A stretch of 64,000 nt of DNA from Sphingomicrobium astaxanthinifaciens (GTDB lineage: Bacteria > Pseudomonadota > Alphaproteobacteria > Sphingomonadales > Sphingomonadaceae), in assembly GCF_022865105.1 (NCBI RefSeq), contig NZ_JAKNYM010000002.1, positions 1,025,501 through 1,089,500 of the forward strand. The letters are read 5' to 3'. Positions 11,170 through 15,000 of this stretch are shown in pieces (the first letter of the stretch is position 1; the number at the start of each line of letters is the position of its first letter). Both the position numbers and the translations under genes were made by a program. Under the pieces are notes generated by a model. The model had not been told where the DNA came from. It made no database searches and saw only the letters and a program-made list of their open reading frames with translations.

Positions 11170-11246
11170 TGGCGCACCCAAGAGGATTCGAACCTCTGGC
11201 CTCTGCCTTCGGAGGGCAGCGCTCTATCCAGCTGAGCTATGGGTGC
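11170..11246 (-). tRNA. tRNA-Arg (anticodon CCG)
   Basis: Read on the minus strand, this 77-nt sequence folds as a tRNA. The 7-bp acceptor stem is GCACCCA/TGGGTGC, the D-arm is AGCTCAGCTGGATAGAGC, the anticodon stem is CTGCC/GGCAG with loop CTCCGAA, and the T-arm has GGTTCGAATCC. The CCA end is encoded. Anticodon CCG reads the CGG arginine codon. It stands alone between the receptor terminator and nrsF. Confidence 0.96.
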
Positions 11247-11298: not shown

Positions 11299-11934
11299 CT
11301 ACCAACGCACGAGCCTCGCGAGTACGAGCCGCCCGATCAGCGCCCAGGCCGCGACGATCCCGACGTGGAAGAAGGCGAGGTGCGCGAAGGACGACCCCCC
11401 GCATTCGAGCGTGATCGCCACCGCGCCCACCGCGCCCGCCGCCAACCCGGTGCACAGCCCCGCCGCCTCGGGCAGGACGGGCGCGCCGCGGCGCAGGTGG
11501 CGCACGATCACCGCGGCGGTGAACAGGCTCGCGCCGACCCCGTTGAGGAGGCACATCAGCCCGATCTGCGCCTGCGCATCGGCAGGGCGCCCGACCAGAT
11601 GCTCGACGAGCGCGATCGCGGGGAACAGGAGCATCGCGACGAACAGCCACAGCGCGCCCCCGCGCGGCGCGCCGACCGCGGGCTGCGCCATGCGGATCGC
11701 GCTCAGCCCCGCGGCGAGCGCGAGCAGCGCGAACAGCGCGGTGGTGACGAGGACGAGCGCGTCGGCGACCCCGTTGACCAGCTGCGGGCGCAGCCCGAGC
11801 AGCCCGATCACCAGCGCGATGGTGACGAGCGCGGCGGCGAGCGCGGCGCGACGCCCGTCGCGCTCGCGCACCGCGGGCTGCGGCGCCAGCTCGGCGGCAA
11901 GGTCGTCGATCATCATGTCGAGGCGTTCGGTCAT
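11299..11934 (-). CDS. nrsF: NrsF, DUF1109 membrane anti-sigma factor for SigF
   Basis: This 211-residue integral membrane protein has six predicted hydrophobic helices after a ~30-residue cytoplasmic N-terminus. The length, helix pattern and position right after an ECF sigma gene identify the NrsF/DUF1109 family, which holds SigF at the membrane until metal stress. Cysteines fall at 128, 161 and 178. The 128/178 pair is spaced exactly as the Cys131/Cys181 pair I recall as important for sensing in Caulobacter NrsF. The start is 7 nt after the sigF stop; an upstream in-frame extension is just the end of sigF read in another frame. Confidence 0.88.
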
Positions 11935-11941
11935 CGGTTTC

Positions 11942-12466
11942 TCATTCGCTTTCCACGAGGGCGGCCAGCTTGCGCAGGCCGCGATGGACATTGACCTTCA
12001 CCGCGCTTTCGCTCTGCCCGGTGAGGCGGGCGGTCTCGGCCACGCTGCGCCCCTCGACCTTGGTCAGGGTGATCGCGCGCGCCTGCGGGGCGGGCAGGTG
12101 GCCGATCAGCTGGTCGAGGCTGAGCCGCGCGAGCACCGGTTCCTCGGGCGAGGCGACCGGCGGCTCGGCCTCGAGGCTGGTCTCGGGGCGGCGCGCGCGC
12201 GCGCGCAGCGCGTCGATCCAGCGATAGCGCGCGATCGCGGCGACCCAAGGAAAAAACGGGCGGTCGGGATCGTAACTGCTGCGCTTGCGATGCACGCTGA
12301 GCAGCGTCTCCTGGACGAGGTCGTCGACCTGCGCGGGAGCGATCCGGCGCGCGAAATAGCCGCCGAGCCAGTCGGCCAGCGCGGCCAGCGCGGCGCGATA
12401 GGCGGCACGGTCGCCGCCCTGTGCGGCGCGCATCAGCGTGCGCAAGTCTTGGTCGCTGTGGCGCAT
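11942..12466 (-). CDS. sigF: SigF-type ECF RNA polymerase sigma factor
   Basis: This is a 174-residue ECF sigma factor. Region 2 spans about 20-90 (VDDLVQETLLSVHRKRSSYDPDRPFFPWVAAIARYRWIDALR). Region 4 spans about 115-170, with a helix-turn-helix around VAETARLTGQSESAVKVNVHRG. It belongs with the ECF group whose anti-sigma is DUF1109 (NrsF), encoded next door. ATG codons at 12469 and 12466 both overlap the doxX stop, so translation is coupled to it. A matching promoter lies upstream of bufA at 14974-15000; if SigF uses it, the operon is autoregulated. The likely inducer is heavy-metal stress, by analogy with Caulobacter. Confidence 0.9.
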   Translation of the reverse strand: MRHSDQDLRTLMRAAQGGDRAAYRAALAALADWLGGYFARRIAPAQVDDLVQETLLSVHRKRSSYDPDRPFFPWVAAIARYRWIDALRARARRPETSLEAEPPVASPEEPVLARLSLDQLIGHLPAPQARAITLTKVEGRSVAETARLTGQSESAVKVNVHRGLRKLAALVESE

Positions 12467-12906
12467 CATCTCCTGTCTAGCAGGAAATCGGCGCTGAGGC
12501 GCCCCGGCCCCTGCGTGACGAGCACCAGCCCGAGCGCGACCCAGCCCATGTGCGGCACCCACCAGGCGGCGGGATAGACGAACAGTTGGATGACCAGCGT
12601 CATCGCCACCAGTCCCGCCGCGGCGAGCCGCGTCGCAAGCCCGAGCGCGAGGAGCAGCGGCAGCAGGTGCTCGGCCACGGTGGCCGCCACCGCCGCCACC
12701 GCGGAGGGAAGCAACGGCACCCCCGAATAGTCGTTGGCGAACAGGAAGAAGGTGGTGTCGCTGATGGCGAACAGGCTGCCGTCCTCGACCTTGGTGCGCC
12801 CCGACTGCCAGAAGATGGCGCCAAGCCCGATCCGCACGAACAGCAGCACGAGGTCGGTGACGAGCGGGTGGCCGGCGAGGCGGCGAAGGGCGGCGGGCCG
12901 GATCAT
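12466..12906 (-). CDS. bufD: DoxX-family membrane protein of bufferin operon (BufD)
   Basis: This is a 146-residue DoxX-type protein with four hydrophobic helices (LVTDLVLLFVRIGLGAIFW, the AVAAVAATVAEHLLPLLLAL segment and two more). DoxX proteins commonly accompany DUF692/DUF2063 pairs. In bufferin operons this gene is called bufD and its role is not settled; a membrane redox or export function is often suggested. It starts within bufC (4-nt overlap) and ends within the sigF start. The longer upstream frame is a shadow of bufC. Confidence 0.85.
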   Translation of the reverse strand: MIRPAALRRLAGHPLVTDLVLLFVRIGLGAIFWQSGRTKVEDGSLFAISDTTFFLFANDYSGVPLLPSAVAAVAATVAEHLLPLLLALGLATRLAAAGLVAMTLVIQLFVYPAAWWVPHMGWVALGLVLVTQGPGRLSADFLLDRR

Positions 12907-13610
12907 GATGCCGCCGCCGCGCCATCGGGGTCGGTCGCCGGCGCCAGCCCGCCGGCCTCGACCAGCAGCGTTGTCGCCGCGGCATCGCGCTCGAGCAGCG
13001 CCGCCATCGGCCGCGGGCGCTCCAGCAGTGCGAGCAGCGCGGCGACCCCGGCGCTCGCAAAATGGTGGCGGCAGCGCGCCTCGGGGCGCGTGAAGAGGAG
13101 GTAGCGCGCCGCGCCCGCGGCTTCCCCCTCCCAGCGGAACCGCGAAGGCTCCTCGAGGCGGAGGAGCCGCAGCGCGGGGTGGACCGTCGCCCGCAGCGCG
13201 AGCAGCGCCGCCGGGGTCAGCCCGGCGATCGCCGCGAGGTCGAGCGCGGGCGTGTCGGGCGCGCCATGCGCCTCGAGGAACAGCCATTCGGCGCGGGCGA
13301 GGTCGCGCTCGTGCGCGCGGGCGAGCTGCTCGGCAAAGCCGGCGCCGATCGCGCGCAACGCCCGGCGGCGCGGCGGCGGGGTCGCGAGAAAGGCGTCGGC
13401 GGCGGCATGGAACGCCGCCTTGCCCATCGCCGCGCGGGTGCGCGCATAGCTATCCTCGAGCGCCACGAACCGGGCGTGGCGGATCGTATTGGCATAGGCC
13501 TTGAGCCCGCGCAGCTGGGCGCCCCGCGGCCCCGCGAGCAACCCTCCGGGCAGCGCCGCGGGGCCCTGCTCGAGCACGGTGGCGAAGGCGATCTGGGGAT
13601 CAGGCCGCAT
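12903..13610 (-). CDS. bufC: BufC, DUF2063 partner of the MNIO enzyme
   Basis: This 235-residue protein has the DUF2063 putative DNA-binding domain in its N-terminal ~100 residues (RGLKAYANTIRHARFVALEDSYARTRAAMG). A second alpha/beta domain binds the precursor leader in related systems. In known bufferin operons the MNIO enzyme BufB needs BufC to modify BufA, so here it probably acts as the recognition subunit. It overlaps bufB by 11 nt and bufD by 4 nt. Function by family and context is firm; the exact contacts are inferred. Confidence 0.88.
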   Translation of the reverse strand: MRPDPQIAFATVLEQGPAALPGGLLAGPRGAQLRGLKAYANTIRHARFVALEDSYARTRAAMGKAAFHAAADAFLATPPPRRRALRAIGAGFAEQLARAHERDLARAEWLFLEAHGAPDTPALDLAAIAGLTPAALLALRATVHPALRLLRLEEPSRFRWEGEAAGAARYLLFTRPEARCRHHFASAGVAALLALLERPRPMAALLERDAAATTLLVEAGGLAPATDPDGAAAAS

Positions 13611-14487
13611 GCGACAGCGCTCCCTCGAGCAGCCGTTCGGCGCGCGCCGCCTCGGCGGCGAGGGTGGCGAAGGCGGGCACGTCATTGTCGCGCTCGACCA
13701 GTACCGGTCGCGGCCCGCACCGTTCGAGCAGGGCCGCCAGCAGCGCCCAGCATTCCTCGCTGACGGGCGAGCCATGGTCGTCGATCGCGAGCAGCGCGCC
13801 CCCCGGGTGGCGCTCGAGCGCATGGCCGGCGACGTGGATCTCGCCGATCGCCTCGAGCGGCAGCGCGTCGAGATAGGCGTGGGGGTCGATGCCGACATTT
13901 GTGCGCGCGACGAGGATGTTGTTGACATCGACCAGTAGCCCGCAGCCCGACCGGCGGACCAGCTCGGCGAGGAATTCGGCCTCGTCGTAGCTGTCCTCGG
14001 CGAAGGCGACCATCCGGCTCGGGTTCTCGATCAGGATCGGGCGCGCGAGCCGATCCTGGATGCGCCCCACCTCGGTCACGAAATGCGCCAGCGAGGCGGC
14101 GGTCATCGGCAGCGGGAGGAGGTCGGGCAGCCGTTCGCCGCCGAGGCTCGACCAACTGAGGTGATCGGACACCATCGCCGGCGCGTAGCGCTCGCACAGC
14201 GCGGCGAGCCGTTCGAGCTCGTCGCGGTCGCAGCCGTCGGGGTCGCCGATCGACAGCCCGACCGAATGGAAACTGACCGGCACTGCCGCACGCACCGCGC
14301 CGAGCCAGCGGTGCGAGGGGCCGCCCGCCATCATGTAATTTTGCGGATGCACCTCGATCCAGCCCGGACCCTGCCCGCGCTCGCGCGCCTCGAGGAAGGG
14401 CGCGAAATGCTGCGGCTTGAGCCCGATGCCGGCGCGGGGCGGCAGCGGGGAGGGGGCGGGTCGGTCGCGGTGGCGGTGGCGGGTCAT
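13600..14487 (-). CDS. bufB: BufB, MNIO (DUF692) peptide-modifying multinuclear iron oxygenase
   Basis: This 295-residue TIM-barrel enzyme of the DUF692/MbnB family oxidises precursor cysteines, to 5-thiooxazoles in bufferins. Likely metal ligands visible in order are His74 (SFHSVG), Asp108-His109 (MVSDHLSW), Glu154 (LIENPS), Asp187 (VDVNN), His218/His222 (IHVAGH), Asp237-His238 (IDDHG) and Glu265 (VERD). The ATG at 14487 follows AGGAA by 7 nt and gives the usual length. It lies 90 nt downstream of bufA, across a hairpin. Its substrate is almost certainly the cysteine peptide from bufA. Confidence 0.92.
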   Translation of the reverse strand: MTRHRHRDRPAPSPLPPRAGIGLKPQHFAPFLEARERGQGPGWIEVHPQNYMMAGGPSHRWLGAVRAAVPVSFHSVGLSIGDPDGCDRDELERLAALCERYAPAMVSDHLSWSSLGGERLPDLLPLPMTAASLAHFVTEVGRIQDRLARPILIENPSRMVAFAEDSYDEAEFLAELVRRSGCGLLVDVNNILVARTNVGIDPHAYLDALPLEAIGEIHVAGHALERHPGGALLAIDDHGSPVSEECWALLAALLERCGPRPVLVERDNDVPAFATLAAEAARAERLLEGALSHAA

Positions 14488-14517
14488 GCGGCGGTTCCTC
14501 GTCGGGACGCAACGGCA

Positions 14518-14561
14518 CCCCGCCCGCCGCGCGTCGCGGGACAGCGGGCGGCGGGGCGGGG
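14518..14561 (-). terminator. GC-rich hairpin between bufA and bufB (attenuator candidate)
   Basis: Arms at 14518-14530 and 14548-14561 pair over 13 bp with one bulged base around a 17-nt loop. There is no T-tract, so it is probably a partial terminator or an mRNA-end protector. It would let the precursor be made in excess over the enzymes, as in many RiPP operons. Confidence 0.55.
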
Positions 14562-14577
14562 CGCCACGATCCGGGCC

Positions 14578-14922
14578 CTAGGCGGGCAGGCCCGGATCGT
14601 TATTGTCCTGCTCGGTCAGCGTGCCGCCCATGGCGTTGCAGCCTTCTTCGCCGCCCTCGACATATTTCCAGGCGTTGCCCTGGTAGTCGACGGTCGAGGT
14701 GCCCGCGCAGCTGGTGCCGGGGCCGGCGGCGCAGTCGTTCTTGCCGGCGAGCGCGACGCCGTAGCATTTGACCTTCTCGGCGCTGGCCTCGCTGGTCTGC
14801 GCGCCGCGCACCTCGGCGCTCTGGGCATTGCCCTCGGCGGCGGGGGCGGCGGGCTGGTTGCCGCAGGCGGCGAGCGCGAGCAGCGCGGTGGCGGCAGCGG
14901 TAGTCTTGGCAAGATCGGTCAT
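14578..14922 (-). CDS. bufA: BufA-type bufferin precursor (DUF2282 family), apparent lipoprotein form
   Basis: This 114-residue exported precursor peptide has a hydrophobic N-terminus ending LALAAC (Cys20), which fits a lipobox. A low-complexity spacer (21-50) is followed by the DUF2282-like core with four cysteines at 53 ([13 protein letters not shown]), 64, 72 (TSCAGTS) and 95 (EGCNAM). In characterised bufferins, some core cysteines become copper-binding thiooxazoles. I chose the ATG at 14922 because it gives an export signal and follows GGGAG at 6-nt spacing. It is first in the operon behind the SigF-like promoter. The lipobox is atypical, since known bufferins use an ordinary Sec signal. 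Confidence 0.88.
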
Positions 14923-14973
14923 CTCTGGCTCCCTTTGTGGCGCGGGAGCGCGTCGTGGTCCCGCACCCCCCTG

Positions 14974-15000
14974 TTCGTCCAATCCGCGCACGGGGTTACA
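14974..15000 (-). promoter_or_regulatory. SigF-type promoter GTAACC-N16-CGAA for the buf operon
   Basis: On the minus strand, TGTAACC (14994-15000) is followed by 16 bp and CGAA (14974-14977). This equals the SigF consensus I recall from Caulobacter (GTAACC-N16-CGAA). The -10 lies about 52 nt before the bufA ATG, so the predicted transcript has a leader of about 45 nt. Confidence 0.85.

Follow-up and report, generated by a model that had tools for sequence, protein, structure and literature searches.

In a 64,000-nucleotide stretch of the Sphingomicrobium astaxanthinifaciens genome (contig NZ_JAKNYM010000002.1, positions 1,025,501 to 1,089,500; hereafter the window), six genes read in one direction on the minus strand from 14922 to 11299, in the order bufA-bufB-bufC-doxX-sigF-nrsF. 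We consider it probable that they form a bufferin operon of the Buf1 type under its own ECF16 SigF/NrsF pair, and that its only precursor is a lipoprotein, which we call a lipobufferin. The precursor, BufA (14578-14922, minus strand), is an L-type, 114-residue DUF2282 (Buf1) protein (PF10048, 70.5 bits; cut-off 22.4) in which the original prediction had missed a lipobox: LAAC at residues 17-20, with Cys20 as the predicted lipid site. BufA has the four conserved cysteines of Buf1 and, by eye, an N-terminal export signal, and its gene lies beside those of an MNIO maturase and a DUF2063 partner, both of which score above their cut-offs. The operon, its SigF-type promoter and its anti-sigma factor, as originally proposed, held up: the six genes lie at the place and on the strand given for them and each matches its own Pfam family, the promoter match is exact, and NrsF carries the cysteine pair described below.

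The operon stands behind an exact SigF-type promoter

GTAACC at 14999-14994 and CGAA at 14977-14974 make up an exact GTAACC-N16-CGAA site (14974-14999, minus strand) that ends 51 nt before the bufA ATG (14922), so that a promoter had rightly been placed there. The consensus is that of Caulobacter sigma-F (PMC3511200), and the 6-bp distance reported for ecfF (PMC3420878) would put the transcript start at about 14968. Exact matches are rare in the 2.24-Mb genome of the window, which contains two, one being the bufA site. When one mismatch was allowed, the genome gave 62 matches compared with 50 for a reversed control, without clear enrichment. The one-mismatch pattern alone therefore proves little, and the case for the promoter rests on its position in relatives.

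These relatives came from a scan of the family, in which 66 of 199 genomes have DUF2282. Eighty fetched regions, two 3-kb loci and the window represent 62 of the 66 and hold 90 bufA genes. Genomes G022, G082, G152 and G177 and second places in G037 and G123 were left out, and three rows were dropped: L002 and L022, which duplicate L056 and L131, and L096, for which the script found no start (S-type by eye). We divided the genes into 25 of the L type, with a lipobox, and 65 of the S type, with a secretion signal. Allowing at most one mismatch and spacers of 15 to 17, from 300 nt before the start to 20 nt into the gene, we found the motif before 64 of the 90 genes (the window's included) and in 134 of 4137 windows drawn at random from these loci (3.2%). 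The spacer was N16 in every motif-bearing bufA gene except that of locus L126, and the first bufA was preceded by the motif in all 14 operons scored, exactly in 13 and with one mismatch in one; a fifteenth operon, L168, is outside this count. By type, the motif was present before 55 of 65 S genes and only 9 of 25 L genes, and a looser rescan of orphan L genes gave 6 of 18 (control, 22 of 1800). By the L counts, many orphan L genes have no visible SigF drive, a point against the reading proposed here.

The last two genes encode the regulators. SigF (11942-12469, minus strand) is an ECF sigma factor matching PF04542 and PF08281, and NrsF (11299-11934, minus strand) is a membrane anti-sigma factor matching PF06532 with 103 bits; against the stricter NCBIfam profile AntiSigF_NrsF it scores 41.6, below the cut-off of 300. 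Two cysteines of the sensor type, C128 and C178, are shared by all 49 aligned NrsF proteins (one sequence per locus, E up to 1e-10), and a third, C161, is not conserved. Both in position and in their 50-residue spacing C128 and C178 correspond to C131/C181 of Caulobacter NrsF (PMC3511200) and C129/C179 of Bradyrhizobium OsrA (PMC3420878). An ECF sigma factor, an NrsF-family anti-sigma factor with two conserved cysteines and GTAACC-N16-CGAA promoters together mark the ECF16 SigF/NrsF type.

A second SigF-type site precedes the gene of an exported MsrB

The original prediction had described a circuit closed on this operon. That part does not stand: the second exact site of the genome lies outside the window (G000:C1:382312-382882), ahead of a gene for an MsrB (SelR, 154.9 bits) with, by eye, a twin-arginine-like signal. 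Behind msrB is a DipZ-like gene with DsbD_TM and Redoxin matches, both below cut-off; its reading frame is truncated where the locus ends. MsrB matches occur in all 71 genomes of the genus; loci came from the best 30, among which are 8 of the 12 operon genomes, and 28 of these loci entered the count (L268 and L269 left out). The motif stood before msrB in 7 of 8 operon genomes, in 4 of 7 genomes with another NrsF and in 1 of 13 that lack NrsF, compared with 7 of 882 random windows; for the operon genomes versus all others, Fisher p = 0.004. Against this counts that the match was exact in only one of the eight operon genomes, two of the seven with another NrsF and none without NrsF, the rest having one mismatch. 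In two cases the motif is no more than 11 nt from the start called for the gene, which may therefore be misplaced. The exact site before an exported MsrB links the bufferin to methionine-sulfoxide repair, and as a SigF target msrB fits a known pattern: the ECF16 regulons of Bradyrhizobium and Brucella are inducible by peroxide or HOCl and contain methionine sulfoxide reductases (PMC3420878, PMC8315932).

These regulons also bear on the trigger. Release of SigF by metal stress, as first proposed, agrees with Caulobacter sigma-F, which responds to chromate and cadmium (PMC3511200); as the only trigger it does not stand, since homologues of the system respond to H2O2 or HOCl. It is possible, though we doubt it, that the operon is mainly a defence against such oxidants, with copper secondary and with modified thiols and Msr acting on oxidised envelope proteins. 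The motif before the exported MsrB, which tracks the presence of NrsF, and the oxidant-inducible regulons speak for such a role, whereas the metal response in Caulobacter and the chelation of copper by bufferins (PMC12452194) speak against it. This alternative would be compatible with a SigF-controlled lipobufferin.

The BufA precursor resembles a lipoprotein

Besides its lipobox, BufA of the window has an acidic linker, four core cysteines and the tail DNNDPGLPA. Cys20 and the core cysteines C53, C64, C72 and C95 are invariant in two alignments (A1 and A4, of 11 and 20 L proteins), as is the pair A19-C20. The invariant cysteine of the lipobox follows a hydrophobic stretch, and the genome encodes a signal peptidase II (LspA; PF01252 match). 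From its sequence, this BufA is a predicted lipoprotein, unlike an ordinary secreted bufferin, and its end product is probably membrane-anchored. The lipobox was judged from its pattern and conservation, and A-P-A-A at residues 26-29, beyond Cys20, is a possible signal peptidase I site; both points weigh against this prediction.

BufA may instead be an ordinary bufferin in which LAAC is fortuitous: signal peptidase I would cut it, and it would act in the periplasm as a free, soluble chelator. Its core and operon are those of standard Buf1, relatives bear the name 'BufA1 family periplasmic bufferin-type metallophore' (such names are silent on lipidation), and A-P-A-A or A-P-A-S lies beyond Cys20 in the window and in loci L161 and L165, though not in L160. 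We nevertheless find this alternative unlikely, because all aligned L proteins keep Cys20 although the N-terminus around it varies, because the lipobox is present in all 120 listed homologues, and because S and L forms differ also in linker and tail and coexist in tandem. The homologues come from a search of 5.8 billion proteins with an L profile, which gave 8000 scored matches; among the 120 listed, the lipobox was found by script in 117 and by eye in three (P0047, P0088 and P0102), an expected outcome in that the query is itself L-type and biases the list to L. The nearest organism names among the listed matches are Sphingomicrobium, and the names listed are ones that we take to belong to Sphingomonadales.

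Within the family sample, S forms have a short linker and mostly a basic tail. In L forms the linker is mostly acidic, and tails like DNNDxGLPA or ADNDPPVPA are frequent. Of the 62 genomes, 22 have L genes, which are mostly orphans: 20 of 25 lie in fetched stretches without bufB, and the remaining ones head or join an operon. The window genome and two degenerate cases aside, an S gene accompanies the four-cysteine L gene in 19 of 19 genomes. The two degenerate genes among the 25 (L071 and L101, in G051 and G128) are orphan lipobox BufA-like genes that have kept the outer two cysteines and lost the central two, with no bufB-like gene within the 11 kb fetched.

Outside the family, no lipobox was found in the BufA signal peptide at any of 37 places, which were picked as best-scoring or for an early match start and not at random. 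They comprise 28 of 30 loci from a class-wide scan (DUF2282 match in 129 of 385 genomes) and 10 more, L329 repeating L307. The script flagged one place, L330, where the motif precedes the start codon; this candidate was rejected. Among 80 named loci, ten are L-type by eye (L180, L181, L182, L187, L206, L212, L220, L221, L246 and L251), nine with Sphingomonadales names and L187 labelled only 'Alphaproteobacteria'; script flags of L203 and L254 as L-type were wrong.

The L form is the only DUF2282 precursor in four operon genomes

In the window genome the L form is the single DUF2282 protein, and there is a single MNIO enzyme. A search for other precursors, with Buf2-type precursors outside its scope, found no further DUF2282 and no EGKCG-coding site, and a second precursor of the EGKCG type was rejected on this ground. 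In the genus, DUF2282 occurs in 31 of 71 genomes, which were read from 20 fetched regions, two earlier ones, the window and, for the other 8, 3-kb loci. Twelve collinear SigF-type operons were found, six with L and S, four with L only and two with S only; each of the L-only genomes (the window's, G202, G230 and G224) has a single DUF2282. Another kind of lipobox BufA, whose tail is of the GSLQ type, occurs in three metagenome-assembled genomes of the genus (G236, G237 and G238; loci L133, L136 and L171), and in L171 it lies near another sigF/nrsF pair.

In a BufB tree of 26 rows (L067 left out), the window is sister to an L+S operon with support of 96/83. The L-only state requires three changes on this tree, of which well-supported branches force two, and bufB is under constraint (window against L160, dN 0.10 and dS 0.51, the nonsynonymous and synonymous divergences). 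The simplest reading of these sequences is a repeated loss of the soluble S form, with a functioning enzyme pair retaining the lipobufferin as its one substrate. Two considerations weaken it: L labels are not clearly more clustered on the tree than in shuffles (82 of 500 as low), and L160 may have acquired its S gene anew, in which case fewer losses would be needed. Given one DUF2282 and one MNIO enzyme, four L-only operons among twelve and at least two events on the tree, the predicted lipoprotein seems to be the sole and sufficient substrate. That L-type BufA is an unmodified lipoprotein with a bufferin fold and no MNIO substrate, BufB and BufC persisting for another precursor, would suit the 20 L genes without bufB and the two L-like orphans without central cysteines, but it is unlikely, as L is the only DUF2282 in four genomes and heads an intact operon there, the central C64 and C72 are kept throughout the aligned L proteins, and the window genome has neither another DUF2282 nor an EGKCG-coding site.

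A stem-loop lies between bufA and bufB

Directly after the bufA stop is a GC-rich stem-loop without a T-run (14514-14565, minus strand), a candidate processing or attenuation element that the original prediction had likewise missed. A 12-bp stem is at the same place in L160, L161 and L165, with 12, 12, 11 and 12 of 12 positions paired in the window, L160, L161 and L165, respectively; across these four, three positions show changes on both sides (arms matched by hand, no control). Dinucleotide shuffles were as low in energy in 24 of 100 cases for the window, 6 of 100 for L160 and at most 2 of 100 for L161, L163, L165, L166 and L052, and a stem of this kind was missing from the tandem operons L164 and L162, where 86 and 22 of 100 shuffles reached as low an energy. 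Since the window stem is no stronger than shuffles, its support comes only from its position and the paired changes in three near relatives. A relic of a deleted S gene was rejected as its origin, because L160 keeps S yet has a similar stem-loop between L and S, and for the window an intrinsic terminator was rejected for want of a T-run. A hairpin resembling a terminator does stand at the end of several orphan L genes.

No second SigF promoter was found in the bufA-bufB gap within two mismatches in the window, L160, L161 or L165. We suggest, with weak support, that transcripts started at the bufA promoter and reading through the gap supply the enzyme genes of the window, and that the stem favours precursor mRNA. 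L163, L166 and L052 do have a SigF site with one mismatch, which overlaps the stem-loop behind the L gene or lies next to it, ahead of the S gene; there, the S gene and the enzymes may have a promoter of their own in that gap.

Layout of the remaining genes

BufB (13600-14487, minus strand) is an MNIO (DUF692) maturase with 311 bits against PF05114 and 336.6 against NF050167 (MNIO_BufB, cut-off 310). Its closest PDB chain by sequence is 3BWW, and 21 His, Asp, Glu, Asn or Cys positions are kept in 96-100% of 82 aligned BufB proteins. BufC, the DUF2063 partner (12903-13610, minus strand), matches PF09836 over residues 8-94 (48.3 bits). Partners of Buf1 precursors carry a C-terminal domain of the RRE type (PME type 1); a sequence search of PDB gave no match for BufC. 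DoxX (12466-12906, minus strand) is a membrane protein with 61.5 bits against PF07681 and an NCBIfam HvfX-family match below cut-off. The genes had been called mostly overlapping, which is true of three of the five junctions (bufB/bufC by 11 nt, bufC/doxX and doxX/sigF by 4 nt each) and not of sigF-nrsF and bufA-bufB, which are spaced by 7 and 90 nt. A tRNA-Arg (CCG) follows on the same strand at 11170-11246, 52 nt beyond the nrsF stop. At locus L117 (genome G169), the first bufA reading frame holds two DUF2282-like stretches, beside an ordinary S-type bufA and a full operon.

Discussion

The operon type, its regulator and its chemistry are already known. The bufferin 1 operon of Caulobacter crescentus (Buf1/BufA1, DUF2282; CC3254-CC3257 with sigF-nrsF, CC3253-CC3252) has the same gene families and promoter consensus, so the likeness to Caulobacter drawn in the original prediction was sound. 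The two differ in that the window precursor bears a lipobox, and in that Caulobacter sigF has its own mapped promoter whereas one site stands ahead of all six genes here; Caulobacter also has a second bufferin operon, CC2907-2905 (PMC3511200). Lipo-NedABC and lipo-DybAH, among the lipoprotein-signal bufferins and DAG-RiPPs, likewise join an MNIO substrate to a lipoprotein signal. Lipidation was shown experimentally for NedA and DybA, lipoprotein signals are mentioned for 'a subset' of bufferins, and the reported mass shift of NedABC is about -4 Da per EGKCG (PMC12636315); absorbance near 305 nm is a further sign of modification (PMC13097082). Those systems are of the EGKCG and chryseobasin-like types, whereas the window operon belongs to Buf1, has a SigF circuit to itself and lacks a soluble partner. 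Lipoprotein signals occur in about 16% of Buf2, and the part of that source drawn on here does not mention Buf1 in this respect (PMC12452194). Bradyrhizobium EcfF-OsrA and Brucella BcrS-AbcS, also ECF16, share the sigma factor, a six-helix DUF1109/NrsF anti-sigma factor and methionine sulfoxide reductases in the regulon, and the EcfF promoter is of the GTAAC type, like the window site; the parts of these reports drawn on here mention no bufferin gene, whereas the window operon makes a bufferin. In the literature searched, which did not extend to supplements or the founding bufferin paper, we found neither a Sphingomonadales lipobox class of Buf1 nor operons with it as the only precursor.

We propose that envelope stress, from a thiol-reactive metal or an oxidant, would act on the two NrsF cysteines and release SigF, which would transcribe the bufferin operon from its single site and the exported MsrB operon elsewhere. 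BufB and BufC would oxidise the two central BufA cysteines in the cytoplasm, with thiooxazole formation, as in known bufferins; after export, BufA would receive its lipid on Cys20, and signal peptidase II would cleave it. The mature protein would stay tethered in the envelope through its flexible acidic linker and bind copper, its outer two cysteines forming a disulphide, and the stem-loop after bufA may hold precursor mRNA above enzyme mRNA. A recent ancestor operon probably had a lipobufferin and a soluble bufferin in tandem, of which the window lineage would have lost the soluble one.

In natural L-only operons no soluble paralogue can confuse the result, so that they are well suited to testing cleanly whether MNIO enzymes truly modify Buf1 lipoproteins and what anchoring adds. 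Within a single genus the operon exists with L alone, with L and S and with S alone, which makes these genomes convenient to compare. Because a SigF site also precedes the gene of an exported MsrB, the handling of copper and the repair of proteins may belong to a single response to envelope stress. With middling confidence, we suggest that Sphingomonadales have a distinct, membrane-tethered class of Buf1, the lipobufferins, which is under SigF control and has repeatedly replaced the soluble bufferin, so that copper might be controlled on the membrane surface, or on material shed in vesicles, together with methionine-sulfoxide repair and with no free periplasmic chelator.

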